From the NCBI RefSeq assembly GCF_007785775.2, contig NZ_VNIK02000003.1, positions 214,902 through 278,901 on the forward strand: a DNA stretch of 64,000 nt, written 5' to 3'. The notes beneath the pieces were generated by a model, which ran no database searches, was not told the origin of the DNA, and saw nothing but the letters and a program-made list of their open reading frames with translations. How positions within the stretch are numbered: position 1 is the stretch's first letter; the number at the start of each line of letters is the position of its first letter. The position numbers were made by a program, and so were the translations under genes. The stretch is from Flagellimonas hadalis. GTDB taxonomy: Bacteria > Bacteroidota > Bacteroidia > Flavobacteriales > Flavobacteriaceae. Shown one piece after another: positions 27,462-41,766 of this stretch.

Positions 27462-28562
27462 ATGAAAAAAAACATCGAATCCATCTTTAAGGCCCATTTA
27501 GAACCCAAAGAGGTCTATAAAGGAGGAAAGAACATTCCGCCTTCCGATAAAAAAATCCATAAACTGTCCTCCAACGAGAACCCGCTGGGCGCATCACCCA
27601 AAGCGGTTGCCGCTATGAAAGCCGCTTTGGAGCATATCGACATCTACCCCGACCAAACCGACATCCGCCTTCGGGAAGCCTTGGTGAAGGATTTTGATGG
27701 AAAACTAAGTGCTGACCAATTTTTGTGCGGCAATAGCGGTTCGGAAATCATCGATATTATTTTGAGGGCCTTTATCAACGAAGGAGACGAGGTGATCTAT
27801 TCCAATCCCTGCTTTTTGCCGTATTCCGTTTTTTCCCGATGGTATGGAGCCAAGACCATTGACATTCCTTTGCTATCCCCCAACTACGATTTGGATGTGG
27901 AAGGGATTTTGAACGCCATCACGGAGCGTACCAAGGTCATTTTTCTCACCAGCCCGAACAACCCAACGGGCACCTATATTCCCAAACCCGTAATGGACGA
28001 CTTTTTGGAACGGGTGCCCAAGAACATTCTCATCGTTTTTGATGAAGTCTATCGTCACTTTGCGGATGCGGAGGATTATGTCACCGCCCTACCCTATGTT
28101 TTGGCGGGACACAATGTGCTTGGTTTGAACAGTTTTTCCAAAACCTACGGTTTGGCAGGTCAGCGTATCGGGTATGCCTACACCACCGCTACCATTGCCA
28201 ACTATATCCGGTTGATCCAAAAACCGTTCTTGCTCCCCTTGACGTCCATCGAAGCGGGCATCGGAGCCTTGAATGATTCGGAGTTTATCGAGAAAACAGT
28301 TCAGACGGTTCTCGATGGTAGAGCATATCTTGCCCAGGAGTTTGACCGCATCGGCATCAAATACTGGCCCAGTCAGGCCAACTTTTTTATCATTGACCCT
28401 CCATTGCCCGAAATGGAATTCACGGATAAACTAATGGAAGAGGGTATTATGGTTCGGCCCGTTTCGCAATTTGGTGCTCCGGGGAAAGTTCGTATCACCA
28501 TAGGTGACGCTGAAGCGAATGAAGCTTGCATTAAAGCGATATGGAAAATAATGGGTGTATAA
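27462..28562 (+). CDS. Class I/II PLP aminotransferase, histidinol-phosphate aminotransferase-like
   Basis: 366 residues, fold-type I PLP enzyme of the HisC family: LSSNENPLGASPKAV (N-terminal substrate motif), SPNNPTGTY, FDEVYRHF, and the PLP lysine in NSFSKTYGLAGQRIGY. The motif KVRITIGDAEAN near the C terminus carries the carboxylate-binding Arg. No other his genes are nearby. At the end of the hppD-hmgA-fahA run it probably transaminates tyrosine or phenylalanine to feed HppD; HisC-like enzymes are known to accept aromatic amino acids. I leave the symbol empty because HisC function is not supported by context. Confidence 0.85.
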   Translation: MKKNIESIFKAHLEPKEVYKGGKNIPPSDKKIHKLSSNENPLGASPKAVAAMKAALEHIDIYPDQTDIRLREALVKDFDGKLSADQFLCGNSGSEIIDIILRAFINEGDEVIYSNPCFLPYSVFSRWYGAKTIDIPLLSPNYDLDVEGILNAITERTKVIFLTSPNNPTGTYIPKPVMDDFLERVPKNILIVFDEVYRHFADAEDYVTALPYVLAGHNVLGLNSFSKTYGLAGQRIGYAYTTATIANYIRLIQKPFLLPLTSIEAGIGALNDSEFIEKTVQTVLDGRAYLAQEFDRIGIKYWPSQANFFIIDPPLPEMEFTDKLMEEGIMVRPVSQFGAPGKVRITIGDAEANEACIKAIWKIMGV

Positions 28563-28564
28563 TC

Positions 28565-28705
28565 GTCATGCTGCCCCCGATAGTTTTCGAGATGGTTCAG
28601 CATTGCATTGCCAGTGAGAACCTGAAACAAGTTCAGGTTGACGTGTTCCAACCGTGGATTCCACATGGTGCCACGACTGGGCTCAGCATCCGTTTGGAAT
28701 GACAG
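28565..28705. repeat. Degenerate palindromic repeat region
   Basis: Contains ATGCTG (28568-28573)/CAGCAT (28598-28603), CCTGAA (28621-28626)/TTCAGG (28632-28637), and GTCATG near the start facing AATGACAG near the end. It looks like a worn copy of the ATGCTGAAC..GTTTCAGCAT-type intergenic repeats of Flavobacteriaceae, between convergent genes. Confidence 0.45.
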
Positions 28706-28710
28706 TTGCA

Positions 28711-31359
28711 TCAAAGCACAAACCGATAGGTTGCCTTCACCAAAAAGATATTCTGGGGCTTCTGTCCAAAAATATTGTCCCCCAAACTGGGCAACAGTCC
28801 ATCGGTAGGGTCGCCACTTCGGGACACATCCTGCGACCAGACCAAGAATATCTCGGAACCGGGTATGTACTCCCATCGGACCACCAAATTGGAACGAAAC
28901 TGCACAAAGGAAAAATCAGGGTTTCCAAAACTAAAGTCCGCAACGTTGTCCAAATCCTCGTCAATGGCATACACGCCATCACTCAAAGTGGTCTGATCGG
29001 CCCCATATTGTACAAATCTGTCCTCAAACCGCTTGGCCGTAGCATCGGCAATATGTTTAAAATTGGAATACCTCCCCCGTGAAATAAAAGGTTGCCCCCA
29101 ATACTGGATGGTCAGGTTGGGATTGATGGTATAGTTCAACCGAACGGACATGCTCAGGGTGCGTTGGTCTATCTCACCGTTGAAGTACCTCGTGGAACCG
29201 TTCACATCATCCAAATTATCAATGAACTGGAGTTTATCATGATTGATGCCCAACGACGGGAAGGCAGACACCCTCAATGCATTGATGGGCTGATAGACAA
29301 ATCCTCCTTCCATATAATACGATTTAAAGGAATTGTCCACGGCTTTTCTACCTTCATGGTAAAATGAGAATTGTATCTTCTTCCTACTATCGGTCTGGAT
29401 ATTGTTCCAAAAGCTCATCCAGGGGGATTGTCTCAACCTCGGCCCGCCCCTCAATGCAAAATTGGAATATTCGATGGGAGCATAGTTGAATCCAATATTG
29501 GTCTGGTAATTGTTCTTCCAGTTTTGCCAGCTATTGGTGTTGAACTGCAAATAATTATGGTTCCCCCCAAAGTCCCAGGCGGTCCAGTGGTTGTAATTGA
29601 TGCCCACTCGCCTAAAGGTACTGTCCGGTTTCAGGGTCTGATAGCCTATCCAGGTATAGTGGCGGATGTCATCGGCCTGGCGTTGAAACCCGATATCGTT
29701 GAGTTCCAGTTCCGGGGAACGCCAGGTACCCCCCGACTCGAACCGCCAATGCCCATTACCGATCTTACCTATTTGCACATTGCCCCCTGTTCCCGACAAA
29801 GAGGTTCGCGTACTATCCACGGAGAGATAATCCGCATCCACCCTGTTGAACAAATGGGCTATGGATCTCTGCGTATTCTCGATGGCCTCCTCGCTGCCCT
29901 GCACATGGCTGAGGGTGACATTCCCGCCCACATACCAATCCCTGTTGTTCCACTGGTGCTTGAAATCCAAACCTCCGGTGTAAGCGGAACTATGCAAAAA
30001 TTGTAGCGATTCGGGCAGGTTTTCCCGATTGGTGGCCGTAAAGATGCCACCGATATAGGAATTACGATCATTGAAATCTTTCTGCAGTCGGCCCACAAAA
30101 TAGTTGGTCAGCGGTTCCACCACTTCTTTTCTCCTATTATCGCTTCCATCAATAATGGTGGCCTGTCGTTGGGAAGTCACACTTTCCAGAACGCCTATGG
30201 CCCAGCCGTTCTTGGTCTTTCCGCTGAACTTTGCCGCCCCAATGATCGGGGTATTGTCGGGCTGATCTACAAACTCGCCATCGACGGTGTTGGGATAGGC
30301 CTGTGGGCTCCTGCCTATGCGCCTGGAATAAAAAACATTGTCGGAACCAAAGGTATTGCCCGCCTCCGATTGCGAAACACTGAAATCGAAGATGTTCTTG
30401 TTCTCCACAAAAAATGGGCGTCTTTCCTGAAAAAATATTTGAAACCCATCCAAAGCAATGGCCGAGGGATCAGCATCCACTTGTCCAAAATCCGGATTCA
30501 CGGTCAGGTCCAAGGTAAGGTCGTTGGTGATTCCAATTTTAGCATCGAGTCCGCCGGTTATGTCACTCTCACTGCCATCCTTGAAAGGGTTGCCCTCCTC
30601 AGCCTCATACGTTTCCATTTTGGCAACGGTGTAGGGTTGGATCTCCAATTGTTTCTGTGGCTCGATGTTCTTCAATCCGTGCAGTTCGCCAAATTCGCTC
30701 ACCCAACCGGGTTGATCCACAGGTTTTCGTTGCCAGACCGAACGCTCTTCGTTCCTAAAATACCTTCTGGTGGATTGAAGCCCCCATACTTGGCTCTCGG
30801 CCTTTCCAAACTTCAACTGGCTCAGGGGAATCCGTATCTCTGCCGTCCAGCCCTCTTCATCAATATGGGTCTTTGCATACCAGATCGGGTTCCAACTGGG
30901 GTCCCAATTGTTGCCGTTATTGGAAACAAATTCATCGCCTTTCACGCCAGCAGCTGTTATGGTAAAGGAAAAAGCGGTCCGTTTGTCAAAATAACTATCG
31001 ATATTGAACTCTACCCAATCGCCCTCAAAGCCATCCCTTCGGGACAATCTCCTTACGATCTTGTCCGGTTCCGTGTCCAGACAACGTACACCTATGTATA
31101 GATTTTTGGTATCATATATAATCTTGAATTTGGTCTGATGGCTCGGTGGAGTATTCTCATCGGGTTGCCATTCAATATAATCCCCGGCCCAATCCACAAG
31201 GTTCCATGCCGGGTCGTCCAAAAGGCCATTGATCGTTGGTGGGGTTTCACTGCCCAGACCCTTGGTCACATAAATTTTCTTGGGGACCACATTGGTGGTG
31301 TCTTGCGCTTCAAGTTGGAAAGTGAGAAGGATGAGTAAAATAAAAGGTATGTATTTCAC
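28711..31359 (-). CDS. DUF5916 outer-membrane protein with N-terminal CBM9-like domain
   Basis: 882 residues with a signal peptide (FILLILLTFQLEAQ). A CBM9-like carbohydrate-binding sandwich lies at about 30-230 (PTINGLLDDPAWN; DTKNLYIGVRCLD; DGFEGDWVEFNIDSYFDKRT; GWTAEIRIPLSQLKF). The DUF5916 beta-barrel follows from about 240 (NPDFGQVDADPS; FFQERRPFFVENK) and the protein ends in F-V-L, as outer-membrane barrels do. The family is widespread in Bacteroidota and of unknown function, probably handling polysaccharide or other large ligands. The start codon is GTG at 31359. Convergent with the aminotransferase gene, which is separated by a degenerate repeat. Confidence 0.88.
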   Translation of the reverse strand: MKYIPFILLILLTFQLEAQDTTNVVPKKIYVTKGLGSETPPTINGLLDDPAWNLVDWAGDYIEWQPDENTPPSHQTKFKIIYDTKNLYIGVRCLDTEPDKIVRRLSRRDGFEGDWVEFNIDSYFDKRTAFSFTITAAGVKGDEFVSNNGNNWDPSWNPIWYAKTHIDEEGWTAEIRIPLSQLKFGKAESQVWGLQSTRRYFRNEERSVWQRKPVDQPGWVSEFGELHGLKNIEPQKQLEIQPYTVAKMETYEAEEGNPFKDGSESDITGGLDAKIGITNDLTLDLTVNPDFGQVDADPSAIALDGFQIFFQERRPFFVENKNIFDFSVSQSEAGNTFGSDNVFYSRRIGRSPQAYPNTVDGEFVDQPDNTPIIGAAKFSGKTKNGWAIGVLESVTSQRQATIIDGSDNRRKEVVEPLTNYFVGRLQKDFNDRNSYIGGIFTATNRENLPESLQFLHSSAYTGGLDFKHQWNNRDWYVGGNVTLSHVQGSEEAIENTQRSIAHLFNRVDADYLSVDSTRTSLSGTGGNVQIGKIGNGHWRFESGGTWRSPELELNDIGFQRQADDIRHYTWIGYQTLKPDSTFRRVGINYNHWTAWDFGGNHNYLQFNTNSWQNWKNNYQTNIGFNYAPIEYSNFALRGGPRLRQSPWMSFWNNIQTDSRKKIQFSFYHEGRKAVDNSFKSYYMEGGFVYQPINALRVSAFPSLGINHDKLQFIDNLDDVNGSTRYFNGEIDQRTLSMSVRLNYTINPNLTIQYWGQPFISRGRYSNFKHIADATAKRFEDRFVQYGADQTTLSDGVYAIDEDLDNVADFSFGNPDFSFVQFRSNLVVRWEYIPGSEIFLVWSQDVSRSGDPTDGLLPSLGDNIFGQKPQNIFLVKATYRFVL

Positions 31360-31530
31360 TTGTTCGTTTATTGATTGGTCTGATTACCCTAAAGACCACG
31401 TTAAAATGGGTTAGTTACAGCACCTCCAATCTTTAAGTTTTTTTTAACGTTTAAAAAGTGATGTTTACGCTGATTTTATCGGGAAGATGAAAAAAAGAAA
31501 AAAGGCGAAAAAATATTCCCAATCAACCGT

Positions 31531-31560
31531 TTGTAATTCAATCTAATAATTGTACATTTG
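31531..31560 (+). promoter_or_regulatory. Promoter of rplM-rpsI
   Basis: TTG (31531-31533), 19-bp spacer, TACATTTG (31553-31560): an exact match to the flavobacterial promoter pattern, 46 bp upstream of the rplM start. Strong placement for a ribosomal-protein operon. Confidence 0.75.
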
Positions 31561-31606
31561 CAGCCCGTTTATCGGGATAGGTATTCAAATCAATAATATT
31601 CTAGAA

Positions 31607-32062
31607 GTGGACACATTAAGTTATAAGACTATTTCCGCCAATAAATCTACCGTTGACAAGCAATGGTTATTGGTTGATGCAGAGGGGCAGAACTTGGGAA
31701 GATTGGCATCAAAAGTGGCCAAATTGCTTAGGGGGAAATACAAGACCAACTTTACTCCCCATGTGGATTGTGGGGACAATGTAATAGTCATCAATGCCGA
31801 GAAGGTGAACTTGACCGGCAACAAATGGGATGACAAAGTGTATTTGAGATATACCGGGTATCCCGGTGGACAGCGTTCCGCTACCGCAAAAGAAGTATTG
31901 AAGAAACATCCTGAGCGCATTATCGAAAACTCCGTGAAGGGAATGTTGCCAAAGAACAAACTTGGTGCTGAAATCTACAGAAACCTAAAGGTTTATGTGG
32001 GTGCCGAGCACGGACAGGAAGCGCAAAAACCAAAGGCAATAAACTTAAACGACTACAAATAA
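31607..32062 (+). CDS. rplM: 50S ribosomal protein L13
   Basis: 151 residues. Family landmarks: [36 protein letters not shown] and [19 protein letters not shown]. The frame is open from 31550, but the GTG at 31607 gives the usual Bacteroidota start (translated [15 protein letters not shown]), and an upstream start would overlap the promoter. L13 is an early assembly protein of the 50S subunit. rpsI begins at the next base after the stop. Confidence 0.96.
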
Positions 32063-32449
32063 ATGGAAGTGGTTCATAAGATAGGAAGAAGAAAGACCGC
32101 GGTGGCCAGAGTATATGTCTCCGAAGGTTCTGGAAACATAACCGTAAATAAAAGGGACCTTGGCGATTACTTTAGCACTGCCACCTTGCAGTACAAGGTA
32201 AAACAACCTTTCACCCTTACCGAGACCGAAGGAAACTATGATGTGAAGGTCAATGTATATGGTGGTGGAATCACCGGACAGGCAGAAGCGGTTCGCTTGG
32301 CATTGTCCAGGGCCATGTGCGAGATCAATGCTGAGAACAGGGAAGTCCTGAAACCAGAAGGTCTTTTGACAAGGGACCCAAGAATGGTGGAAAGAAAGAA
32401 ATTCGGTCAGAAGAAAGCCCGTAAGAAATTCCAATTCTCCAAACGTTAA
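32063..32449 (+). CDS. rpsI: 30S ribosomal protein S9
   Basis: 128 residues; MEVVHKIGRRKTAVARVYV at the start, VYGGGITGQAEAVRLALSRA in the middle, and the conserved basic tail RDPRMVERKKFGQKKARKKF ending in K-R, whose terminus reaches the P-site tRNA. It follows rplM with no gap, the usual L13-S9 pair, and is closed by a strong terminator. Confidence 0.97.
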   Translation: MEVVHKIGRRKTAVARVYVSEGSGNITVNKRDLGDYFSTATLQYKVKQPFTLTETEGNYDVKVNVYGGGITGQAEAVRLALSRAMCEINAENREVLKPEGLLTRDPRMVERKKFGQKKARKKFQFSKR

Positions 32450-32488
32450 TATTGCGGTGCCTTGGCACCTCTATATAAGTTCATTGAA

Positions 32489-32520
32489 AACCCTGAAAAC
32501 CATTTTCAGGGTTAAATTTT
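32489..32520 (+). terminator. Intrinsic terminator of rplM-rpsI
   Basis: An 11-bp stem AACCCTGAAAA (32489-32499)/TTTTCAGGGTT (32503-32513) followed by AAATTTTT. A second short palindrome GGTGCC-TT-GGCACC precedes it at about 32456. Confidence 0.8.
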
Positions 32521-32661
32521 TAACCAAGTTGTCGTTGTTCCAAAAGGAAAAAATGAATCGACTTTTTGGAATTTAGTTTAGCATCTAAATGGATTGGGCA
32601 AACCTAAAAGTGACCACCAGTTCATTGCTACTACAACGGAACGTAAACTAAGTACAAAAAA

Positions 32662-33768
32662 ATGGCAAGTAAAATTGAAGTAAAAGACTTACTGGAAGCA
32701 GGTGTGCATTTTGGACACCTAACACGAAAGTGGAATCCCAACATGGCTCCCTACATCTACATGGAGCGAAACGGTATCCACGTCATCAATCTCTACAAAA
32801 CTGTAGCAAAACTTGAGGAAGCCAACGAGGCCCTTAAGAAAATTGCGGCCTCTGGACGAAAAATCCTTTTTGTGGCCACCAAAAAACAAGCCAAGGACAT
32901 CGTTGCCGACAAGGTATCCAAAGTGAACATGCCCTACATCACAGAAAGATGGCCCGGTGGTATGTTGACCAACTTTGTCACCATCCGTAAAGCTGTCAAG
33001 AAAATGGCCGCTATCGACCGAATGAAAAAAGACGGGACCTTTGACACCCTTTCCAAAAAAGAAAGATTGCAAGTGGACCGTTTGCGTGCCAAACTGGACA
33101 AAAACTTGGGTTCCATTGCAGACATGACCCGTTTGCCAGGTGCACTTTTCATCGTTGACACCATGCGTGAGCACATTGCCGTCAAGGAAGCGTTGAAATT
33201 GAACATCCCTATTTTCGCGATGGTCGATACCAACTCCGACCCAAGACCCATCGACTTCGTAATCCCTGCCAACGATGACGCCGGAAAATCCATCGAGGCC
33301 ATTTTGGAAGAAGTGACCAAAGCTGTGGCCGAAGGTTTGTCCGAGCGTAAAAATGACAAGGCCAACGACAAAGAAGATGAAGATGAAGATGACGTGACCA
33401 CTAAAGCTGTTATGGTCGATGAGGATGAGGACGATGAAAAACCGTCCAAAAAATCAAAGCCCGTGGCCAAAGAAGTGAAGCCAGCACAAAAAGAAGTTAA
33501 AGCTGAAAAGGCAAAAACAGATGACTTGACCAAAGTGGAAGGCATTGGCCCAAAAGCAGCCGAAGCATTGGTTGAAGCTGGGGTATCCACCTTCGCCAAG
33601 CTTTCTGAAACGTCTGCTGATGACATCAAGGAAATCTTGACCGACGCCAGCTCCACCATGGCCCACTTGGATCCAACTTCTTGGCCCAAGCAAGCCAAAA
33701 TGGCCGCTGAAGGAAAGTGGGACGAATTGAAAGAATGGCAAGACAGTGTTAAGGGAGGCGTTGAATAA
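32662..33768 (+). CDS. rpsB: 30S ribosomal protein S2 with C-terminal helix-hairpin-helix extension
   Basis: 368 residues against about 240 for E. coli S2. Residues 1-228 are a complete S2 (LEAGVHFGHLTRKWNPNM; ERWPGGMLTNF; TRLPGALFIVD; NIPIFAMVDTNSDP). An acidic, then lysine-rich linker (229-286, with EDEDEDD) leads to an HhH module (287-332; LTKVEGIGPKAAEALVEAGV) and a helical tail (333-368; WPKQAKMAAEGKWDELKEWQ). HhH modules bind DNA or RNA backbones, and similar tails occur, as far as I recall, on other Bacteroidota ribosomal proteins such as L21. The extension is in frame with no sign of a sequencing break. Paired with tsf. Confidence 0.95.
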   Translation: MASKIEVKDLLEAGVHFGHLTRKWNPNMAPYIYMERNGIHVINLYKTVAKLEEANEALKKIAASGRKILFVATKKQAKDIVADKVSKVNMPYITERWPGGMLTNFVTIRKAVKKMAAIDRMKKDGTFDTLSKKERLQVDRLRAKLDKNLGSIADMTRLPGALFIVDTMREHIAVKEALKLNIPIFAMVDTNSDPRPIDFVIPANDDAGKSIEAILEEVTKAVAEGLSERKNDKANDKEDEDEDDVTTKAVMVDEDEDDEKPSKKSKPVAKEVKPAQKEVKAEKAKTDDLTKVEGIGPKAAEALVEAGVSTFAKLSETSADDIKEILTDASSTMAHLDPTSWPKQAKMAAEGKWDELKEWQDSVKGGVE

Positions 33769-33798
33769 ACCAACCTTGATTTAACATTGTCCTAAAAC

Positions 33799-33819
33799 AA
33801 AACACTTTAATAGTGTTTT
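33799..33819 (+). terminator. Weak hairpin between rpsB and tsf
   Basis: AAAACACT (33799-33806)/AGTGTTTT (33812-33819) with a 5-nt loop, followed by ACTTTACAT and not by a clean T-run. It could act as a partial terminator or processing site lowering tsf relative to rpsB. Confidence 0.35.
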
Positions 33820-33852
33820 ACTTTACATAAATTTTTAAAAAAGCATAGAAAA

Positions 33853-34677
33853 ATGGCACAGATTACCGCCGCAGAAGTAAATAAACTAAGACAGACCACC
33901 GGAGCTGGGATGATGGATTGCAAAAAAGCTTTGGTCGAGGCCGATGGCGATTTTGAAAAAGCAATCGAGATCCTGCGCAAAAAAGGACAGAAAGTAGCCG
34001 CCAACAGAGCTGACAGGGAATCCTCTGAAGGTGCTGCCATAGCAAAAGTGAATGCCGGCAGCACCCAAGGTGTGGTTATTTCATTGAACTGCGAAACCGA
34101 CTTCGTTGCCAAAAACGAAAGCTTTGTGACCTTGGCCAACGATTTGGCCGATCTTGCACTAGGTTTCGACAACAAGGAAGCTTTTCTTGCCGCTCCTTTC
34201 AGTGGCATGACCGTTGCGGATAAATTGACAGAGCAGACCGGTGTGATCGGTGAAAAAATCGAGATCGGAAGCTTCGAGAAATTGAGCGCCCCTTTCGTAG
34301 GATCTTACATCCACGCCGGAAACAAGATCGCTACATTGGTAGGTTTGTCCGCCAATGTTGACGGTGCTGCCGAAGCTGCCAAAGATGTAGCCATGCAAGC
34401 TGCTGCAATGAACCCTGTTGCCCTTAACGAAGAAGGCGTAGATCAGTCCATCATCGATAAGGAAATCGAGATCGCAAAAGAGCAATTGCGCCAAGAAGGA
34501 AAGCCAGAAGCTATGTTGGACAACATCGCCAAAGGTAAATTGAACCGTTTCTTCAAGGACAACACCTTGGTCAACCAAGATTTCATCAAGGACAGCAAAG
34601 TTAGCGTTGCCCAGTATGTAAAATCTGTTGACAGCAACTTGACCGTTACCGGTTTCAAAAGAGTAGCATTGGGATAA
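33853..34677 (+). CDS. tsf: Translation elongation factor Ts
   Basis: 274 residues. The N-terminal UBA-like domain contains EVNKLRQTTGAGMMDCKKAL; the core carries LNCETDFVAKNESFVTLAND (the EF-Tu-binding TDFV motif) and GSYIHAGNKIATLVGLS; the C terminus contains FFKDNTLVNQDFIKD. It is the guanine-nucleotide exchange factor of EF-Tu. It follows rpsB by 84 bp, the usual bacterial pair, and ends at a strong terminator. Confidence 0.97.
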   Translation: MAQITAAEVNKLRQTTGAGMMDCKKALVEADGDFEKAIEILRKKGQKVAANRADRESSEGAAIAKVNAGSTQGVVISLNCETDFVAKNESFVTLANDLADLALGFDNKEAFLAAPFSGMTVADKLTEQTGVIGEKIEIGSFEKLSAPFVGSYIHAGNKIATLVGLSANVDGAAEAAKDVAMQAAAMNPVALNEEGVDQSIIDKEIEIAKEQLRQEGKPEAMLDNIAKGKLNRFFKDNTLVNQDFIKDSKVSVAQYVKSVDSNLTVTGFKRVALG

Positions 34678-34694
34678 TCCCGTACCATTCAAAT

Positions 34695-34727
34695 AAAAAA
34701 AGGCCCCATTAAAATGGGGCCTTTTTT
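34695..34727. terminator. Intrinsic terminator after tsf
   Basis: Stem AGGCCCCAT/ATGGGGCCT extended by A6 and T6 runs. It separates tsf from the convergent DUF4097 gene and can serve both strands. Confidence 0.85.
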
Positions 34728-34746
34728 ATGCTTGGATTTTTCCTCA

Positions 34747-35556
34747 TTACTTTGACTTGATCATGATGTCACCGTTAAAGGTCTTGAACAATAGTTCGGG
34801 ACCGCCACCATTGATCTTGCCCCTGACCCATTGTTCCAATTTCACCTTATAACTGCCAGAAGTTTGCTTTTTGTCCATTTCAGGCTTGTTCTCTGAAAGG
34901 GCCATATCAAAATCGGTATAAACATCGCCCATATCCGATTTGGCCTTCACATTTGCCTTTATACTTCTCGGGAAGGTTACCTCCACATTTCCATTGAAAC
35001 TGCTAAAAGCCATATCCGTCATATTGCCCATCTTTTTAAAATCGACCTTCACTGGCCCATTGGTGGTATAGGCAATGACCGCACCTTCCACATTTAGGAG
35101 TGAAATAGCCCCGTTCACATTATTGATCTCCAAATCACCCGTAACTCCTTGCACCAAAATATCGCCATCATTTACCGTACTTAATTTTAAGGCAAAATTA
35201 TAAGGAACCTTGATCTCAAAATCAGCCTTTCTGCTCCACATCTCATTTTGGATCCTGACCTCGTTGCCTTTCTCCTCGGCACTGATGTTGAGCCCAGAAT
35301 TGCCAATACGTTTCATGCCATTCTTCTCGTTGTTGGAAGACTTCTTATCCCCCGAAACCGAAACCTTTGCAATAACTTCCTTGCCCTCATACCCGGTTAC
35401 GGTAATGGACCCACTGATCTGATCAAGAACCAATTTTCCGGATTGTCCGGGAGTGCTCAACGGAATGGTAAATAAATCGATTTCCTTGTCCTGTGCGGAC
35501 AACACACCCGTAATCAATACAAGGGTGACAACAGCTATAGTTTTGATCTTCTTCAT
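34747..35556 (-). CDS. DUF4097 family exported beta-helix protein (second copy)
   Basis: 269 residues from the ATG at 35556, with a signal peptide (TIAVVTLVLITGVLSAQ). The mature protein is a run of short beta strands of the DUF4097 (putative adhesin/auto-transporter-like) type, with turns such as TVNDGDILVQGVTGD, NNVNGAISLLNVEG and SFNGNVEV. The fold suggests a right-handed beta-helix; function is unknown. It is closely related to its upstream neighbour (both share TVNDGDILV), and its ATG lies 4 bp after that gene's stop. Together with the sigma and anti-sigma genes it probably forms one envelope-stress-type operon. Confidence 0.85.
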   Translation of the reverse strand: MKKIKTIAVVTLVLITGVLSAQDKEIDLFTIPLSTPGQSGKLVLDQISGSITVTGYEGKEVIAKVSVSGDKKSSNNEKNGMKRIGNSGLNISAEEKGNEVRIQNEMWSRKADFEIKVPYNFALKLSTVNDGDILVQGVTGDLEINNVNGAISLLNVEGAVIAYTTNGPVKVDFKKMGNMTDMAFSSFNGNVEVTFPRSIKANVKAKSDMGDVYTDFDMALSENKPEMDKKQTSGSYKVKLEQWVRGKINGGGPELLFKTFNGDIMIKSK

Positions 35557-35560
35557 GACT

Positions 35561-36427
35561 TTATATTTTTTTGATGAATACATTCCCGTTCAAGGTTTCA
35601 AAATCAAATTCCACTTGACCGCTTCCAATCTGGACAACGGGCCTGGATTCAAACTTGAATTTGGGCTTGTCGCCATCACCTTCATTTTTACTGGTCTTCA
35701 CAAATTGTTTGTTGATGTCAAAGTCCGTGAACATTTCCCCGTTCATACTTTTGAACGAGATGTTGGCCGAAAGTGATTGCTGGTATGAAATAATGATATC
35801 CCCGTTCAAAGCATAATAGCGAGAGGCCACCTTCGGATTGCGGGCATACGAAATATCCACATCCCCATTGATACAGCTTACCTTGGTCTTTCCTGAAATG
35901 TTGTTCAGGGAAATACCTCCGTTGATATTGTCAGCTTCCACGGACTCCCCGTTTGTGTTCTTGACCAAAATATCCCCATCATTGACCGTGCTTACATTGA
36001 TCTTGACCGAGTTCGGCACCTTCAAGGTAAAATTCAACTTGTGTTCATAGGGAACATCCTCGTTGTTGTTGCACCAATTGTACCTCAACTTGTCTTTTTC
36101 AAATTCGATGTAGGGAGCATCGGGATGAAGAATGACCCGATTGCTTTCCGCAATGACTTGGAGTTGCAGTTCCTTTTTTCCCAATTCCAGGTCTTCCGAG
36201 TTTTTGGCAGAAATAATTCGTTCCACCTCCAGCACCACTTCGTTTCCGTTGTATCCTTCCACGTTCACGGAACCGAATACGTTTTTCACAACCAAAGTGT
36301 TGTTGACATCATTGGCAAGGGGGACACTTTTTCGGATGACCTCCTTGAACTCCTTTTTCTGTGCCGTGGCACCCAACATGCCCACTCCCAAGGACAGACA
36401 TGACATAATAATTAACCGTTTCATCAT
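35561..36427 (-). CDS. DUF4097 family exported beta-helix protein (first copy)
   Basis: 288 residues with a signal peptide (IIMSCLSLGVGMLGATAQ). Beta-strand repeats like those of the following gene: LVVKNVFGSVNVEGYNGNEV, VSTVNDGDILVKNTNGES, DNINGGISLNNISGKTK and FETLNGNVFIKKI at the end. Exported, probably periplasmic or surface-exposed. It follows the anti-sigma gene by 60 bp on the same strand. Likely a duplicate of the next gene that has diverged considerably. Confidence 0.85.
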   Translation of the reverse strand: MMKRLIIMSCLSLGVGMLGATAQKKEFKEVIRKSVPLANDVNNTLVVKNVFGSVNVEGYNGNEVVLEVERIISAKNSEDLELGKKELQLQVIAESNRVILHPDAPYIEFEKDKLRYNWCNNNEDVPYEHKLNFTLKVPNSVKINVSTVNDGDILVKNTNGESVEADNINGGISLNNISGKTKVSCINGDVDISYARNPKVASRYYALNGDIIISYQQSLSANISFKSMNGEMFTDFDINKQFVKTSKNEGDGDKPKFKFESRPVVQIGSGQVEFDFETLNGNVFIKKI

Positions 36428-36487
36428 TTTAAAAAATTAGACTGTTCGTAATTTGATTTGCGCCCAAAGGGCAGATTGATAAATAAA

Positions 36488-37282
36488 CTATATGATGGAT
36501 TCAATACTCCTTTCGATTCGTTTTTTGACCGTGGTATCCAACTGTTTTTGCTTCAATAACTGCTTGAAGGGTTCTATGGATGCCTTTTCCTGAAGGGCCA
36601 CCATCAAATTGGCCAAGGTTATCTGTAAAATGGGTGACTCCTGGTTCGGGATGGATTGCACCAAACCTTGCCTAACCTCAGGCTTGTCCACATAATTGGT
36701 CAAGGATTCTATCGCGGCCAGCCTTACGTTTACGTTGGGATCACTATTGAGCGTTTTTAAAAGCGCCCTGATCACAATATCATCGGCATTCTCAAACTTA
36801 TTGGCTTCGCTCACGCCTTGCAATCGTTGGTTTGCCGATGGTTGGTCCAACAGGGTCAGCACCAACTTTTGACGCACTTCCTCGGTCTCGTTGTTCGCTG
36901 CCATGATTTGCGTAGGAATCGGTTCCACTTCGGGCCTAAAAAAATACCCGACACCCAACCCGATCATGAGCAGAAAAATTCCAATGGCCCATTGTGGCCT
37001 TAAAATCCCGGAAAGCATGGATATAACACTTTGTTTGGGCGCCTTGTCTTCCTTCTTTTCCATTTCGGAGGATAGCATGGTAAAAAAGGCCTCGTCCATA
37101 CTTTCCGAAGGCTCAGGGGTTTGGATAGCCTGCAATAGCTCCCAAGCTTTCAATAGGTCATCGTACTTTTCACGATACTCCCCATGCCCTTCCAAGAAAA
37201 ATTCAAATTCCTTCGCTTCGCTTTCTGAAAGGTTTCCGGACATATAGTCCATGGCCCATATTTCAAACTTTTCGTCCATCAT
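36488..37282 (-). CDS. Anti-sigma-factor-like membrane protein with HEAT repeats
   Basis: 264 residues in three parts. The cytoplasmic N-terminal region (1-95; DYMSGNLSESEAKEFEFFLE) resembles the helical anti-sigma domain of the RsgI/FecR-like type, without zinc ligands. A single membrane helix follows (WAIGIFLLMIGLGVGYFF, about 94-111). The C-terminal domain carries HEAT-type helical repeats (about 130-264; SDPNVNVRLAAIESLTNYV), expected outside the membrane. It starts inside the end of the ECF sigma gene (ATGA overlap), the classic arrangement for a sigma and its own anti-sigma. The HEAT part may sense a protein partner in the periplasm. Confidence 0.8.
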   Translation of the reverse strand: MMDEKFEIWAMDYMSGNLSESEAKEFEFFLEGHGEYREKYDDLLKAWELLQAIQTPEPSESMDEAFFTMLSSEMEKKEDKAPKQSVISMLSGILRPQWAIGIFLLMIGLGVGYFFRPEVEPIPTQIMAANNETEEVRQKLVLTLLDQPSANQRLQGVSEANKFENADDIVIRALLKTLNSDPNVNVRLAAIESLTNYVDKPEVRQGLVQSIPNQESPILQITLANLMVALQEKASIEPFKQLLKQKQLDTTVKKRIERSIESII

Positions 37283-37833
37283 CTCGTTTCCAATTGTAAA
37301 AAAATCGTTTTCAAATCCTTTAATGCCCGGTGTACCCTGACCTTCGCCGCGCCTTCGGAACAGCCCAAGATCTCACCGATCTCTTGGAACTTCAGTTCCC
37401 TGTATTTGCTCAGCAGCAATATTTCTCTTTTTTCAGAAGGCAGAAGACCCAATGCCTTGGTAAGCATTTGCGCATTCCCTTCCTGGTCCATGGTCTCATT
37501 CAAATAATCCCCTGTTCCTTTATCCACCTGCTCCGGGGCTATCCCTCTCGAAACTCCTTCGCGAGAAATTTTCTTATAATGATCATTGCCCACGTTGCGG
37601 GCCATGCTGAACATCCATGCCGTGAAAGGGCCCTCTCCCGTGAAGGAGTGTCGGTACTTCAAGATCCTCACAAACACATTTTGCACCAAATCTTCACTGA
37701 TGGATGGGTTGTTGCCCATATTATAGAAAAATCCAAAGAGCCTTTTCTTATGCCGTTCATAGAGCAGGCCCAACTTGTCCAAGTCGCCACTCTTCACTTT
37801 CAGCATCAAGACATTATCGGTCAGTGTTTGCAA
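37279..37833 (-). CDS. ECF-type RNA polymerase sigma factor
   Basis: 184 residues. Region 2 contains LYERHKKRLFGFFYNM, SEDLVQNVFVRILKYRHSF and PFTAWMFSMARNVGNDHYKK; region 4 contains LLPSEKREILLLSKYRELKFQEIGEILGCSEGAAKVRVHRAL (helix-turn-helix). First gene of a unit with the overlapping anti-sigma gene and two exported DUF4097 proteins, which may be its own targets. The frame begins with TTG at 37833; the first ATG in frame (37806) would remove nine conserved-looking residues (QTLTDNVL), so TTG is preferred. Confidence 0.9.
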   Translation of the reverse strand: MQTLTDNVLMLKVKSGDLDKLGLLYERHKKRLFGFFYNMGNNPSISEDLVQNVFVRILKYRHSFTGEGPFTAWMFSMARNVGNDHYKKISREGVSRGIAPEQVDKGTGDYLNETMDQEGNAQMLTKALGLLPSEKREILLLSKYRELKFQEIGEILGCSEGAAKVRVHRALKDLKTIFLQLETR

Positions 37834-37941
37834 TGAATTGTTTTTTTGGTTGTTGTAGGATATACCGTTGTTTTTGAAAAAGGTTACAGAATGTATGGAT
37901 TTTTATCCATTCGTATCTTGGGTCATCCCATTTTCACTGAT

Positions 37942-37969
37942 TTGCCATAATTTTTTTTGATTATTTTTG
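37942..37969 (+). promoter_or_regulatory. Promoter of pyrH-frr
   Basis: TTG (37942-37944), 17-bp spacer, TATTTTTG (37962-37969), 22 bp upstream of the pyrH ATG. It matches the flavobacterial consensus. Confidence 0.65.
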
Positions 37970-37991
37970 TCCGAACTTCAAGAAACCTTTG

Positions 37992-38699
37992 ATGCATTAC
38001 AAGAGAATTTTATTAAAACTGAGTGGGGAGGCCTTGATGGGCAAAAAGCAATACGGAATCGACGGGGACCGTTTGTCCGAATATGCAGATGAGATCAAGG
38101 CTGTGGTGGACAAGGGTATTGAAGTGGCCATCGTTATTGGTGGGGGCAACATTTTCAGGGGCCTTGCCGGCGCCAGTCAAGGAATGGACCGGGTACAGGG
38201 CGACCACATGGGCATGTTGGCCACCGTGATCAACGGATTGGCCCTACAGAGTGCCCTGGAACTCAAAGGCATCCAGACCCGCTTGCAATCGGCCATCAAG
38301 ATCAACGAAGTGGCCGAACCTTTTATCAGAAGAAGGGCCATCCGACATTTGGAAAAAGGTAGGGTCGTGATTTTTGGAGGAGGAACAGGAAACCCATATT
38401 TCACTACCGATTCCGCTGCTGTATTGAGAGCCATCGAAATCAATGCCGATGTGATCCTGAAGGGAACCCGTGTTGATGGCATCTACACTTCCGACCCTGA
38501 AAAAGATAAAAATGCCACCAAATTTGATTCCCTTTCATTCCAAGAGGTACTTTCAAAAGGTTTGAAGGTGATGGACACCACCGCCTTCACACTGAGCCAA
38601 GAAAACGAATTGCCCATCGTGGTCTTCGACATGAACACCAAGGGCAATTTGATGAAGATCGTATCGGGGGAGAACATTGGAACGGTGGTCAACGTTTAA
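37992..38699 (+). CDS. pyrH: UMP kinase
   Basis: 235 residues, amino-acid-kinase fold: [13 protein letters not shown] (phosphate-binding start), [44 protein letters not shown] and [13 protein letters not shown]. It phosphorylates UMP to UDP as a hexamer. An upstream TTG at 37989 adds one residue; ATG at 37992 is used. It forms the common bacterial pair with frr 40 bp downstream. Confidence 0.96.
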
Positions 38700-38739
38700 A
38701 ATGGTCACATTTTTGATATTGTTATAAAAATTTAAGAGC

Positions 38740-39294
38740 ATGGACGAAGAAGTAAAATTTGTACTTGATAGCACTAAAGAGAGCATGGATGCCAGTATTT
38801 CCCACTTGGAAAAGGCCTTTATAAAGATCCGTGCCGGAAAGGCCAGTCCCATAATGCTGTCATCCGTAATGGTGGACTATTACGGCGCGCAGACTCCCTT
38901 ATCCCAAGTATCGAACATCAACACGCCCGACGCCAGGACCATTTCAGTGCAGCCTTGGGAAAAGAACCTTATCGGGGAAATAGAAAATGCCATCATGAAC
39001 GCCAATTTGGGGTTTAACCCCATGAACAACGGGGAAATGGTCATCATCAATGTGCCGCCATTGACCGAAGAGCGCAGGAAACAATTGGTGAAACAGGCAA
39101 AGGCGGAAGCGGAAGATGCCAAAGTGAGCATCCGAAGTGCCCGACAAGAGGCCAACAAGGAGCTCAAGGCATTGGAAATCTCGGAAGACCTTTTGAAGAA
39201 TGCGGAAGTGGACGTGCAGGAACTCACCGACTCCTACAGCAAAAAAGTGGACTCCATCCTCTCCGTGAAAGAGGCGGAAATCATGAAAGTCTAA
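38740..39294 (+). CDS. frr: Ribosome recycling factor
   Basis: 184 residues of normal length. Landmarks: AFIKIRAGKASPIMLSSVMV, YYGAQTPLSQVSNI, ISVQPWEK, VPPLTEERRKQLVKQAK and SIRSARQEANKELK. With EF-G it splits the post-termination ribosome. Ends 13 bp before a strong terminator. Confidence 0.97.
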   Translation: MDEEVKFVLDSTKESMDASISHLEKAFIKIRAGKASPIMLSSVMVDYYGAQTPLSQVSNINTPDARTISVQPWEKNLIGEIENAIMNANLGFNPMNNGEMVIINVPPLTEERRKQLVKQAKAEAEDAKVSIRSARQEANKELKALEISEDLLKNAEVDVQELTDSYSKKVDSILSVKEAEIMKV

Positions 39295-39306
39295 AACTTT
39301 CTCCTT

Positions 39307-39345
39307 GATCGGCTGCTTTCTTAGGAACACAGCCGATCATTTTTT
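39307..39345 (+). terminator. Intrinsic terminator of pyrH-frr
   Basis: Stem GATCGGCTG (39307-39315)/CAGCCGATC (39330-39338), a 14-nt loop that can partly pair (TTC/GAA), then ATTTTTT (39339-39345). Confidence 0.8.
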
Positions 39346-39352
39346 ACCTTTG
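39345..39352 (+). promoter_or_regulatory. Probable -7 promoter box of the MMPL gene
   Basis: TACCTTTG matches TAnnTTTG and sits 17 bp before the ATG at 39370, directly at the end of the frr terminator. No TTG is found at the -33 distance. Confidence 0.4.
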
Positions 39353-39369
39353 CGCCCAACAAAACCGAA

Positions 39370-41766
39370 ATGGCAGTAAAGCTCATGAAAGGATTTTGGC
39401 CCAAGGTCTCCCGAATCATTCTCCGCAACAGGATACTCATCCTTTTAGGAATTGTGGCTTTTACTGTTTTTTTGGCGCTGCAGTGGAAGAACATCCGGTT
39501 TTCCAACACGGAATCCAATATCCTTCCCGATGACCATCCGGCCACCATACAGTACCGATCTTTTACCAAAATATTTGGCGAAGAGGGCAATGCCATTGTC
39601 CTGGCCATAAGGGACACCGCCCTGTTCACCCCAAAAAACTTCAATCGGTGGAACAAACTGAGCAAGCAATTGGAGGCATTTCCCGAGATAGACTTTGTCG
39701 TTTCCCTGGAAAACCTTCGGGTGCTCGTAAAGGACAATGACGAGCAGGTCTTTGTGATGGAACCTTTCCTGAAGAAAAAACCCAGCAGCAAGACAGAGAT
39801 CGATTCATTGAAGAACCATTTGTTCAATGAACTTCCTTTTTATGATAATCTGGTCTATAACCCCAAAAGCGGGACCATACAGACCATCGCCTATCTGGAC
39901 AAGGACATTATGGATACTCCGGTCAGGAACGAATTTATCCTGAACGATCTGGACGATCTCGTCAAAAGTTTTGAGGAGGAGACCCAAATGGATGTCCACG
40001 TTTCGGGAATGCCCTACATCCGAACCTGGAACACCAAGTCCATCGTGGACGAAATCGGGATCTTTATCGTGGCCGCCCTCTTGGTCACTTCCATTATCTT
40101 TTTCTTTTTCTTCAGAAGTTTCAGGGCCACTTTCATATCCATGTTCGTGGTCATCATCGGGGTCATGTGGGCCTTCGGCATCCTTGGATTGCTGAAGTAT
40201 GAGATGACGATTCTTACGGCACTGATCCCTCCACTCATCATTGTGATCGGCATCCCCAACTGTATTTTCCTCATCAACAAATACCAACAAGAGGTAAACA
40301 AACATGGGAATCAAGCCCTGTCCCTACAGCGGGTCATCTCCAAGATCGGGAACGCCACATTGATGACGAACATCACCACGGCATCGGGTTTTGCCACCTT
40401 TATCATTTTGGATAGCGACCTTCTTAGGGAATTTGGCATTGTGGCCTCCATCAATATTGTGGGGATTTTTATCCTTTCCCTATTGATCATACCGATCATC
40501 TATAGCTTTATGCCGCTTCCAAAGACCAAACACCTGAAGCACCTGAACAAGAAATGGATGGACTTCTTTGTGAACTGGATGGAGCGGATGGTCCGGGACC
40601 ACAGAATTGCCGTCTACATGACCACAGTGGCCATCTTGGTTCTTAGCATTATCGGTATTTACCAAATGCGGATCACCGGGAGCCGGATTGAAGACCTTCC
40701 CAAAGACACCCATTTTTATAAGGACATCCAATTTTTTGAACAGGAATTTGATGGCATCATGCCCATGGAAATTGTGGTGGACACAGAGCGGAAAAACGGG
40801 GTCCTCAAGCCAGCTACCCTCAAGCGAATGGACGAATTGGGCTCGGTCATCCATGAAATTCCTGAACTGTCCCGGCCTATTTCAGTGGTGGACCTGATCA
40901 AATATTCCAAGCAGGCCTTTTATAATGGCATCCCCAAATATTACCAGCTGCCCACCAACCAAGAGAACACCTTCATCATGGATGTGGCTCGAAAATCATC
41001 TACTGATGGCAATCTTCTGAAAAGCTTCGTGGACAGTACAGGGCAAACCGCACGCCTTACCACCTATATGCAGGATGTCAAGATCGACCGCATGGAGGAA
41101 ATCGAAAAAACAATACAGCAATCCATCACAAAGCTCTTCCCCGATGATCGGTATAATGTGTTCATGACCGGAAAAGCATTGTTGTTCCTAAAAGGAACCA
41201 AATACCTGGTCAAGAACCTGTTGCTTTCATTGGCACTCGCCATTGGCCTGATCTCCCTTTTTATGGCCTATCTCTTCCGGTCGTTCCGGATGGTCGTCAT
41301 ATCCCTGGTTCCCAACCTTTTGCCATTGGTCATCACCGCTGGCCTCATGGGATATTTGGGCGTCCCCATAAAACCGTCCACTATACTGGTGTTCAGCATC
41401 GCCTTTGGTATTTCTGTGGACGACACCATCCATTTTCTGGCAAAATACCGTCAGGAACTGGCTGCCAACCGTTGGCAGATCAAAAAATCGGTTTATGCCG
41501 CCCTTCGGGAGACCGGCGTGAGCATGTTCTACACCTCCATCGTCCTCTTTTTCGGGTTTTCGGTCTTCACCATATCCAGTTTTGGGGGCACCAAGGCCTT
41601 GGGTGCATTGGTATCCGCTACGCTATTGTTCGCCATGCTGTCCAATTTGATCCTGCTGCCCTCCCTGCTCCTTTCCTTGGAAAGAAGCATTGCCAACAAA
41701 CAGGTGCTCAAAAAACCGCAGATCGATATTTTACCACAGGACGAGGACAACGGCAAAGAGAAATAG
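39370..41766 (+). CDS. MMPL/RND-family exporter
   Basis: 798 residues with the two-fold RND layout: one helix plus a periplasmic loop, five helices, then a repeat of the same. The helix-4 type segments are visible (ILTALIPPLIIVIGIPNCIF in the first half, ILVFSIAFGISVDDTIHFLA in the second, with the acidic proton-relay pair DD). The periplasmic loops carry NTESNILPDDHPATIQY and GSRIEDLPKDTHF. This subgroup (hopanoid/lipid exporter-like, MmpL/SecDF-related) moves lipids or hydrophobic molecules using the proton gradient; the substrate is unknown. No periplasmic adaptor gene is adjacent. Confidence 0.9.
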   Translation: MAVKLMKGFWPKVSRIILRNRILILLGIVAFTVFLALQWKNIRFSNTESNILPDDHPATIQYRSFTKIFGEEGNAIVLAIRDTALFTPKNFNRWNKLSKQLEAFPEIDFVVSLENLRVLVKDNDEQVFVMEPFLKKKPSSKTEIDSLKNHLFNELPFYDNLVYNPKSGTIQTIAYLDKDIMDTPVRNEFILNDLDDLVKSFEEETQMDVHVSGMPYIRTWNTKSIVDEIGIFIVAALLVTSIIFFFFFRSFRATFISMFVVIIGVMWAFGILGLLKYEMTILTALIPPLIIVIGIPNCIFLINKYQQEVNKHGNQALSLQRVISKIGNATLMTNITTASGFATFIILDSDLLREFGIVASINIVGIFILSLLIIPIIYSFMPLPKTKHLKHLNKKWMDFFVNWMERMVRDHRIAVYMTTVAILVLSIIGIYQMRITGSRIEDLPKDTHFYKDIQFFEQEFDGIMPMEIVVDTERKNGVLKPATLKRMDELGSVIHEIPELSRPISVVDLIKYSKQAFYNGIPKYYQLPTNQENTFIMDVARKSSTDGNLLKSFVDSTGQTARLTTYMQDVKIDRMEEIEKTIQQSITKLFPDDRYNVFMTGKALLFLKGTKYLVKNLLLSLALAIGLISLFMAYLFRSFRMVVISLVPNLLPLVITAGLMGYLGVPIKPSTILVFSIAFGISVDDTIHFLAKYRQELAANRWQIKKSVYAALRETGVSMFYTSIVLFFGFSVFTISSFGGTKALGALVSATLLFAMLSNLILLPSLLLSLERSIANKQVLKKPQIDILPQDEDNGKEK

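Follow-up and report, generated by a model that had tools for sequence, protein, structure and literature searches.

Ribosomal protein S2 of Flagellimonas hadalis carries a C-terminal helix-hairpin-helix module that recurs on other ribosomal and membrane proteins

The S2 protein encoded in the window (the whole 64,000-nucleotide stretch of F. hadalis DNA that was analysed) ends in a helix-hairpin-helix (HhH) module, as the first-pass annotation had proposed from the sequence alone. Both parts lie in one frame (Table 1): the Pfam family Ribosomal_S2 (PF00318) covers residues 10-225 (E 1.1e-89), its model being matched from end to end (1-216 of 216; 299.8 bits against a cut-off of 26.1), TIGR01011 covers residues 5-226 (E 1.9e-89), and HHH_5 (PF14520) covers residues 287-325 (E 4.2e-8; 34 bits against a gathering score of 27). 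The annotation had also suggested that the module may be a shared ribosomal add-on, and its range turned out to be broader than supposed: the same extra domain was found on at least seven ribosomal proteins (uS2, bS1, bS16, bL17, bL20, bL21, and bL27), and also on subunits of membrane energy complexes, even though ribosomal proteins are highly conserved. We tentatively propose, with confidence short of an even chance, that the tail is a nucleic-acid-binding leash that would hold ribosomes to the nucleoid or to transcripts.

Table 1. Features of the S2 locus, in positions of the window.
Feature	Position	Strand	Basis and remarks
ORF reading as rplM (L13), precedes rpsI	31550-32062	+	ORF list; name from sequence
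rpsI (S9), upstream neighbour	32063-32449	+	ORF list; name read from sequence
S2 fusion ORF (rpsB)	32662-33768	+	368 aa, ATG start, single open frame
Ribosomal protein uS2 core, residues 1-228	32662-33345	+	Pfam PF00318, TIGR01011
Charged, predicted flexible linker, residues 229-284	33346-33513	+	pLDDT, low identity, charge count
C-terminal HhH module, residues 285-368	33514-33765	+	HHH_5, AlphaFold2; further helices carry SWPKQAKMAAEGKWDELKEWQ motif
TAA stop codon, immediately 3' of module	33766-33768	+	Sequence
tsf (EF-Ts), downstream neighbour	33853-34677	+	ORF list; name read from sequence

Judged from the sequence, the fusion gene sits in an ordinary ribosomal operon context, rpsI-rpsB-tsf, its neighbours being what we take, by eye, to be rplM, rpsI, and tsf. 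The best PDB match of the S2 core was 9oy8 (E 1.7e-126), one of the ribosome entries related to 7jil that we take to be from Flavobacterium johnsoniae. A single S2 match was obtained in the whole genome that contains the window (4.07 Mb, 99.94% complete), and since the fusion is the only S2 gene, the tail should be present on every S2-bearing 30S subunit, unless it is clipped. A gap of 212 bases (32450-32661) separates rpsI from rpsB, and an A-rich stretch abuts the S2 start. An Rfam scan of window positions 28000-40000 gave no family at gathering score.

The 56-residue stretch that follows the S2 core is a charged linker, as annotated, with 14 K+R and 19 D+E residues, and is disordered in the structural model. 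The annotation had divided the remainder into an HhH domain (287-332) and a helical tail (333-368). The HhH nature stood, but the division did not: AlphaFold2, run on an alignment of 51 modules, predicted six helices that make up a single folded unit, with a mean pLDDT of 85.7 and values of 86-93 for ten-residue blocks in the folded part. In the full-length S2 model (38 sequences; mean pLDDT 73.2), blocks of residues 291-360 reached 85-92, nearly all of residues 238-284 fell below 50, and the S2 core was moderate only (blocks at 52-89). Residues 285-368 are thus predicted to be a single module at the end of a disordered leash. Within it, E-G-x-G-P-K, W, and Q were invariant in alignments of 17 and of 51 modules, and the GxGPK hairpin was present in 217 of 221 module matches from a redundant set. 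The module is acidic in the window S2 (10 K+R versus 17 D+E), and its net charge averages -3.6 among S2 carriers. Linkers of S2 fusions are neutral on average and those of L21 fusions are basic (mean +7.9). In its carriers, the module lies at or near the C-terminus, followed by a median of 1-3 residues and at most 18.

The linkers vary in length and sequence in both S2 and L21 fusions, with 20-124 aa in the 62 distinct S2 fusions. Over 600 sampled pairs of these 62 sequences, mean pairwise identity and pN/pS were, respectively, 0.90 and 0.10 for the core, 0.33 and 0.62 for the linker, and 0.74 and 0.21 for the module; with synonymous sites near saturation, the pN/pS figures are to be read as ratios and not as rates. 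The pN/pS contrast was weaker in 52 L21 fusions (core 0.26, linker 0.47, module 0.32). By this comparison of sequences, selection preserves the S2 module relative to the linker. A sequencing error joining two genes, which had been named as a possible refutation, is excluded as the source of the fusion because a conserved core and module with a variable linker recur in 62 distinct sequences. The statement that S2 normally ends near residue 240 does not describe the family: 37 of its module-free S2 proteins measured 241-331 aa, mostly ending in charged low-complexity tails. About 8 of these 37 (among L243-L282) share an end motif like EVPSKDAEDKKAMKEAKKPVKLESK, possibly a second type of S2 tail.

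Of 120 genomes sampled from the family of F. hadalis, 116 gave an S2 match, and at least 17 of these encode S2 and the module in one frame, all 17 being confirmed by sequence. S2 fusions were found in at least 13 named genera (Allomuricauda, Flagellimonas, Maribacter, Zobellia, Zeaxanthinibacter, Pareuzebyella, Ulvibacterium, Pricia, Eudoraea, Croceivirga, Croceitalea, Robiginitalea, and Arenibacter), some of the carriers being uncultured or MAGs. In the public MAG Allomuricauda sp. BWSM_41 (L117), the module is identical to that of the window while the S2 that bears it differs slightly, which also speaks against an error. A tree was built from 57 of 60 S2 cores (L265, L272, and L276 yielded no usable frame); its family fusions were the 17 sampled ones and that of G248, and 17 of these 18 formed one supported group (98/89). 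The fusion of G056 adjoins this group, in a wider group with five module-free genomes, and a single clade of all 18 was not rejected (p-AU 0.48); on these sequences, G056 may reflect one loss, or a second gain, of the module. S2 fusions were also present in G398 and G425, which belong to a different family (f89). They are most simply explained by an independent gain; a less simple alternative is that the gain is old and was followed by many losses. The 86-column module tree gave no order of transfer between S2 and L21; an alternative that united the S2 modules in one clade was not rejected, and its score was in fact the better one.

In the genome of the window, the module was found on three proteins. 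Besides S2, a second strong copy (47% identity) is carried by a 185-aa membrane-anchored protein (L003), in which a hydrophobic segment near the N-terminus looks like a transmembrane helix. The third is a protein assigned by eye as ActC-like (NrfD), whose divergent module lies on the contig of the window, some 9 kb ahead of its first position (G000:C23:205562-205783, minus strand; E 1.7e-9 to the model of the phasin PhaH, E 0.012 to the S2 tail). The genome's own L21, a 184-aa frame, gave no module match.

An L21 match was obtained in 118 family genomes, and in at least 56 of them L21 carries the module (in a divergent form in G097 and G042, strongly in the other 54), coordinates having been matched by hand and the sequence inspected for 24 of the 56; a similar tail on some Bacteroidota L21 proteins, mentioned in the first-pass annotation, is therefore real. 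Among the matches listed, which were obtained with a single-sequence query and reach to about E 1.6e-4, so that module presence is a lower bound, neither S2 nor L21 was fused in 54 of the 120 genomes and both were fused in 7. Strict mutual exclusion of the two fusions, considered as a rule, fails on these 7 genomes. The scan that gave the named genera retained the 80 top-ranking stretches out of 549 confirmed ones; classed by motif or by eye, these comprised 44 S2, 29 L21, 2 L17, 2 L27 (L182 and the partial L169), 1 S16, 1 S1, and 1 small basic protein. Pfam matches confirmed bS16 (L165), bS1 (L193), bL17 (L098), bL27 (L099), and bL20 (L231) as ribosomal carriers, and NrfD/ActC and ActD (L223) as non-ribosomal carrier domains. 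HHH_5 was matched below E 1e-3 in all of them except L231, the module of which rests on our own module profile (E 7e-33).

In a wider sample of the class, 25 of 295 genomes had a module match at E 1e-8 and the other 270 had none at that threshold. The 51 matches fell in 50 proteins, with identities mostly assigned by eye: 20 were ribosomal (3 S2, 5 L21, 5 L27, 3 L17, 1 L20, and 3 S1, two of the S1 being divergent), 4 ActC, 4 ActD, 2 of one kind of small basic protein, and 20 others, mostly membrane-anchored and including one frame with stops. The ribosomal share corresponds to p 3e-21 against an assumed background of 2% and to p 1e-13 against 5%. Both f89 genomes have strong modules on ActC as well as on ActD (L223 in G398, L224 in G425). 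Taken together, module carriers are large assemblies or membrane-anchored proteins. Eleven genomes (the 7 of the family, G398, G425, G183, and G435) have the module on two ribosomal carriers, and in none of the 11 were both in one ribosomal subunit, G435 counting as a two-subunit case only if its small basic carrier belongs to the 50S subunit. The occurrence of one domain on at least seven different ribosomal proteins, and on subunits of energy complexes, suggests that selection favours a hook somewhere on the ribosome rather than at one fixed site. A rule of one module per ribosomal subunit was not retained, 11 genomes offering too few independent combinations.

To what is the module related? 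The 79-aa S2 tail alone matched positions 174-229 (of 234) of the PhasinPhaH model NF045508 (E 5.9e-5) and the L21 models NF008916 (E 6.8e-7) and NF008915 (E 1.2e-6). The whole S2 scored 42.3 bits against NF045508, far under its cut-off of 250; S2 is thus not a PhaH and has at most the C-terminal domain in common with it. At E<=1e-5, NF045508 matched only S2 and ActC in the genome of the window, the longer PhaH matches taking in low-complexity linker. Among 14 control genomes, it matched two, Caulobacter vibrioides, as expected, and Methanocaldococcus jannaschii, one of them over the cut-off, and given the M. jannaschii match, part of the PhaH similarity may be general to HhH domains. NF008916 matched 10 of the 14 control genomes, over its cut-off in none, and so says nothing of tail carriers. 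Profile searches also linked it to the C-terminal domain of NuoE. A search of PDB chains with the module retrieved chain O of 8yy9, which is protein-O of an RC-LH1 complex (E 1.4e-9), and, in 9wqv, a complex I subunit labelled "41 kd" (E 1.2e-5). In Shinella sp. PSBB067 (L311), two adjoining frames, one apparently coding for NuoE, have the module at their ends and matched the Bacteroidota module profile at E 1.3e-10 and 4.9e-10. At the level of sequence similarity, the module is homologous to the C-terminal domains of alphaproteobacterial NuoE, protein-O, and the phasin PhaH.

The PhaH of Caulobacter crescentus has a C-terminal HhH domain similar to the S2 module, but its N-terminal partner is a granule-binding phasin and not a ribosomal protein; the S2 module differs also in being acidic. 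A 2025 review states that PhaM, PhaF, and PhaH bind granules by their N-terminal ends and DNA nonspecifically by their C-terminal ends, PhaH through its HhH domain, and that PhaH positions PHB granules along the nucleoid (PMC13052382). The NuoE of Shinella and its neighbour, the NuoE model NF009040, the 9wqv subunit, and protein-O of Dinoroseobacter shibae (8yy9) bear the same type of module, on membrane energy complexes instead of ribosomes. In the protein-O report (PMC12079452), the gene is placed between nuoE and nuoF and the protein is described as a transmembrane part, a long flexible loop, and a helical C-terminal domain, of which only the N-terminal part was traced; its authors mention that NuoE, one subunit of ATP synthase, and an endonuclease share this domain, and call its function obscure.

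The fold neighbours of the predicted module were SAM-like HhH domains, with Z values that are not decisive. Neighbours at Z 3.8-8.6 were a Pol theta helicase region, the RadA N-terminus, NusA acidic repeats, SAM domains, and BAF, a mixture of protein-binding (NusA acidic repeats, SAM) and DNA-binding domains; a fold family missing from this list is not thereby excluded. NusA acidic repeats and RadA N-termini superposed at Z about 5.2-7.4 (rmsd 2.5-4.6 over 60-74 residues; Foldseek E >=0.87), NusA AR1/AR2 at Z 5.7-6.9, and SAM domains at Z 4-5. Foldseek with the module model gave no E below 0.37. Weak matches to PRK12766 (E 0.029) and to PDB 9l94 (E 0.087), which we take to represent haloarchaeal eL32, amount to an analogy at most, and our literature search found no paper about this parallel by title.

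HhH additions to ribosomal proteins are already known as annotation models, and an object of this kind is not new. Models of an extended S2 (NF008966) and of L21 (NF008915, NF008916), presumably alphaproteobacterial, join a ribosomal protein to a module-like C-terminal domain and carry no assigned function. NF008966 (PRK12311) matched the window's S2 tail alone at E 0.044; the whole S2, aligned over 4-348, scored 276.8 bits, below the cut-off of 526. L084 and L087 did better, their module regions matching the terminal part of NF008966 with E values of about 9e-9. Another NCBI-recognised add-on to S2 (NF051451) and L20 (NF051450), the Sunset domain, is in our understanding a domain different from the HhH module; the window's S2 scored 238.5 bits against NF051451 (cut-off 710), and L20 was likewise far below the NF051450 cut-off. 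In the ribosome of what we take to be Flavobacterium johnsoniae (7jil and related entries), S2 (254 aa) and L21 (147 aa) both lack the module, the L21 chain having a K/A-rich tail. These solved ribosomes therefore miss a feature that is common in the family sampled here, and our PDB searches found no solved ribosome with the module. Among open-licence papers, neither a Bacteroidota S2 fusion nor one module moving among seven ribosomal proteins was found described, and the literature search returned no experiment on a module borne by the ribosome.

The explanation that we favour, a leash to the nucleoid or to transcripts, would work as follows. The disordered 56-residue linker would be the leash and the 84-residue SAM-like HhH domain the hook, which would bind nucleic acid weakly and without sequence preference, on nucleoid DNA and/or nascent transcripts. 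Ribosomes would thereby be attached to the nucleoid, as PhaH reportedly attaches storage granules, and the membrane-anchored module protein of the same genome and ActC of alternative complex III would be attached likewise. Nucleic-acid binding by the S2 module is plausible by analogy with PhaH. Such a leash would account for a module that lies at the C-terminus on a variable linker, that can sit on one ribosomal protein or another, and that also has non-ribosomal carriers; a ribosomal site that is not conserved is as expected of a tether. The conserved GxGPK hairpin, the basic L21 linkers, and the selection on the S2 module are in its favour too. Several observations count against it: the acidity of the module is unusual for nonspecific DNA binding, and S2 linkers are neutral on average; the PhaH model also matched in M. 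jannaschii, its match to the tail alone is modest (E 5.9e-5), and its longer matches take in low-complexity linker; the fold neighbours include protein-binding domains, with no Foldseek E below 0.37; and in many relatives the matches listed show the module on neither S2 nor L21. If the module binds DNA as reported for PhaH, the ribosome and the nucleoid would be linked in a hard-wired manner. A bolder extension, which we consider unlikely, is that the module is a general nucleoid-attachment tag, bolted via flexible leashes, by Bacteroidia and separately by Alphaproteobacteria, onto any convenient ribosomal protein (never onto two of one subunit among the genomes seen), onto membrane complexes of respiration or photosynthesis, and onto proteins of storage granules; if true, it would couple ribosome, nucleoid, and membrane at the protein level.

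The main rival to the nucleic-acid leash is protein docking, a possible but rather doubtful explanation in which a SAM-like/NusA-AR-like domain would bind itself or a shared partner, such as one of the membrane-anchored module proteins or else RNA polymerase, and ribosomes would be joined to membrane complexes, to one another, or to the transcription machinery. The acidic surface and the structural neighbours NusA AR1/AR2 and SAM domains are in keeping with docking, but these Z values are in a range that may mean a common arrangement only. Inspection of the sequences showed that each of the 17 genomes with an S2 fusion has, in addition, a gene for a membrane-anchored protein with the module. 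Among the matches listed for the 120 genomes, strong ribosomal and membrane-anchored modules occurred together in 31, ribosomal ones only in 35, membrane ones only in 8, and neither in 46 (odds ratio 5.1, Fisher p 1.9e-4, kinship ignored), all 39 genomes with a strong membrane-anchored copy having been inspected by sequence. Ten weaker short-frame matches were also membrane-anchored proteins with a divergent module, and 9 of them fell among the 35 "ribosomal only" genomes, so that the absence of a membrane partner from 35 of 66 genomes with a ribosomal module does not hold; this fits a membrane partner being common. With the divergent copies added, the counts become 40, 26, 9, and 45, the Fisher figure belonging to the earlier counts, and 26 of the 66 genomes still have no membrane-anchored module among the matches listed, which speaks against docking. 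We find it quite improbable that the module is instead a promiscuous C-terminal domain, easily joined to genes with charged tails and tolerated in a near-neutral manner with no ribosome-specific role. The differing carriers between lineages, the many relatives in which the module was not found, and the disordered charged tail already present on module-free S2 as a point of attachment would agree with this view, but the purifying selection on the S2 module as compared to the linker, the ribosomal share in the class sample, far over the assumed background, and the retention of the S2 fusion across 13 genera argue against it.

S2 adjoins S1 and the mRNA path on the 30S subunit, and the first-pass annotation had accordingly suggested that the tail could function in initiation, as an RNA-binding arm acting on mRNAs without Shine-Dalgarno (SD) sequences. 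The lack of SD sequences in Bacteroidetes, reported in PMC3155529 and PMC6847099, is compatible with this role, as is the module borne by bS1 itself in some relatives. However, the module is also found on the 50S proteins bL17, bL20, bL21, and bL27 and on membrane proteins such as ActC and ActD, and what is conserved is therefore not a location next to S1 and mRNA; within the family, L21 fusions are more numerous than S2 fusions; and the F. johnsoniae chains of S2 and L21 lack the module even though that species is also without SD sequences. An initiation-specific role is weakened by these carriers to the point of being very unlikely. We give least credence to a handle for assembly or quality control, by which the module would recruit an assembly factor or mark a subunit during biogenesis only: carriers occur in both subunits and no genome was seen with two in one subunit, as such a handle might have it, but ActC, ActD, and the membrane-anchored carriers have no role in ribosome biogenesis.

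Several further carriers were observed. A small basic protein with about 45 residues before the linker bears the module in L191 (2279-2746, plus strand), L208, and L209, and the company that it keeps suggests an unrecognised ribosomal protein. Its N-terminus gave no credible PDB, Pfam, or NCBIfam match, and, given the PDB result, bL38 is not claimed as the identity of L191. A search of 12 genomes found short frames that resemble it at the N-terminus but have no module in G525, G121, and G481 (E 2.6e-9 to 9.5e-4); the genome of the window yielded no such frame. Membrane-anchored proteins with a tandem pair of modules were seen in G183 (L114) and G156 (L112). A second membrane-anchored type, with frames of 178-214 aa in 10 family genomes (L296-L305), has a divergent C-terminal module with the motif GRxxRDxWVxQA or near it, resembling the alphaproteobacterial form. 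Two proteins of about 300 aa also end in the module, L087 (G085; E 5.2e-13 to the PhaH model) and L092 (G086; alike by eye, with a sub-threshold HHH_5 match), and PhaH-like phasins may thus occur in the family of F. hadalis. Finally, three Riemerella anatipestifer sequences filed as plasmids (NZ_CP081938.1, NZ_CP081932.1, and NZ_CP072187.1) carry the module on an annotated rplU (L21); compared with the S2 module, it is 45% identical (E 1e-17).
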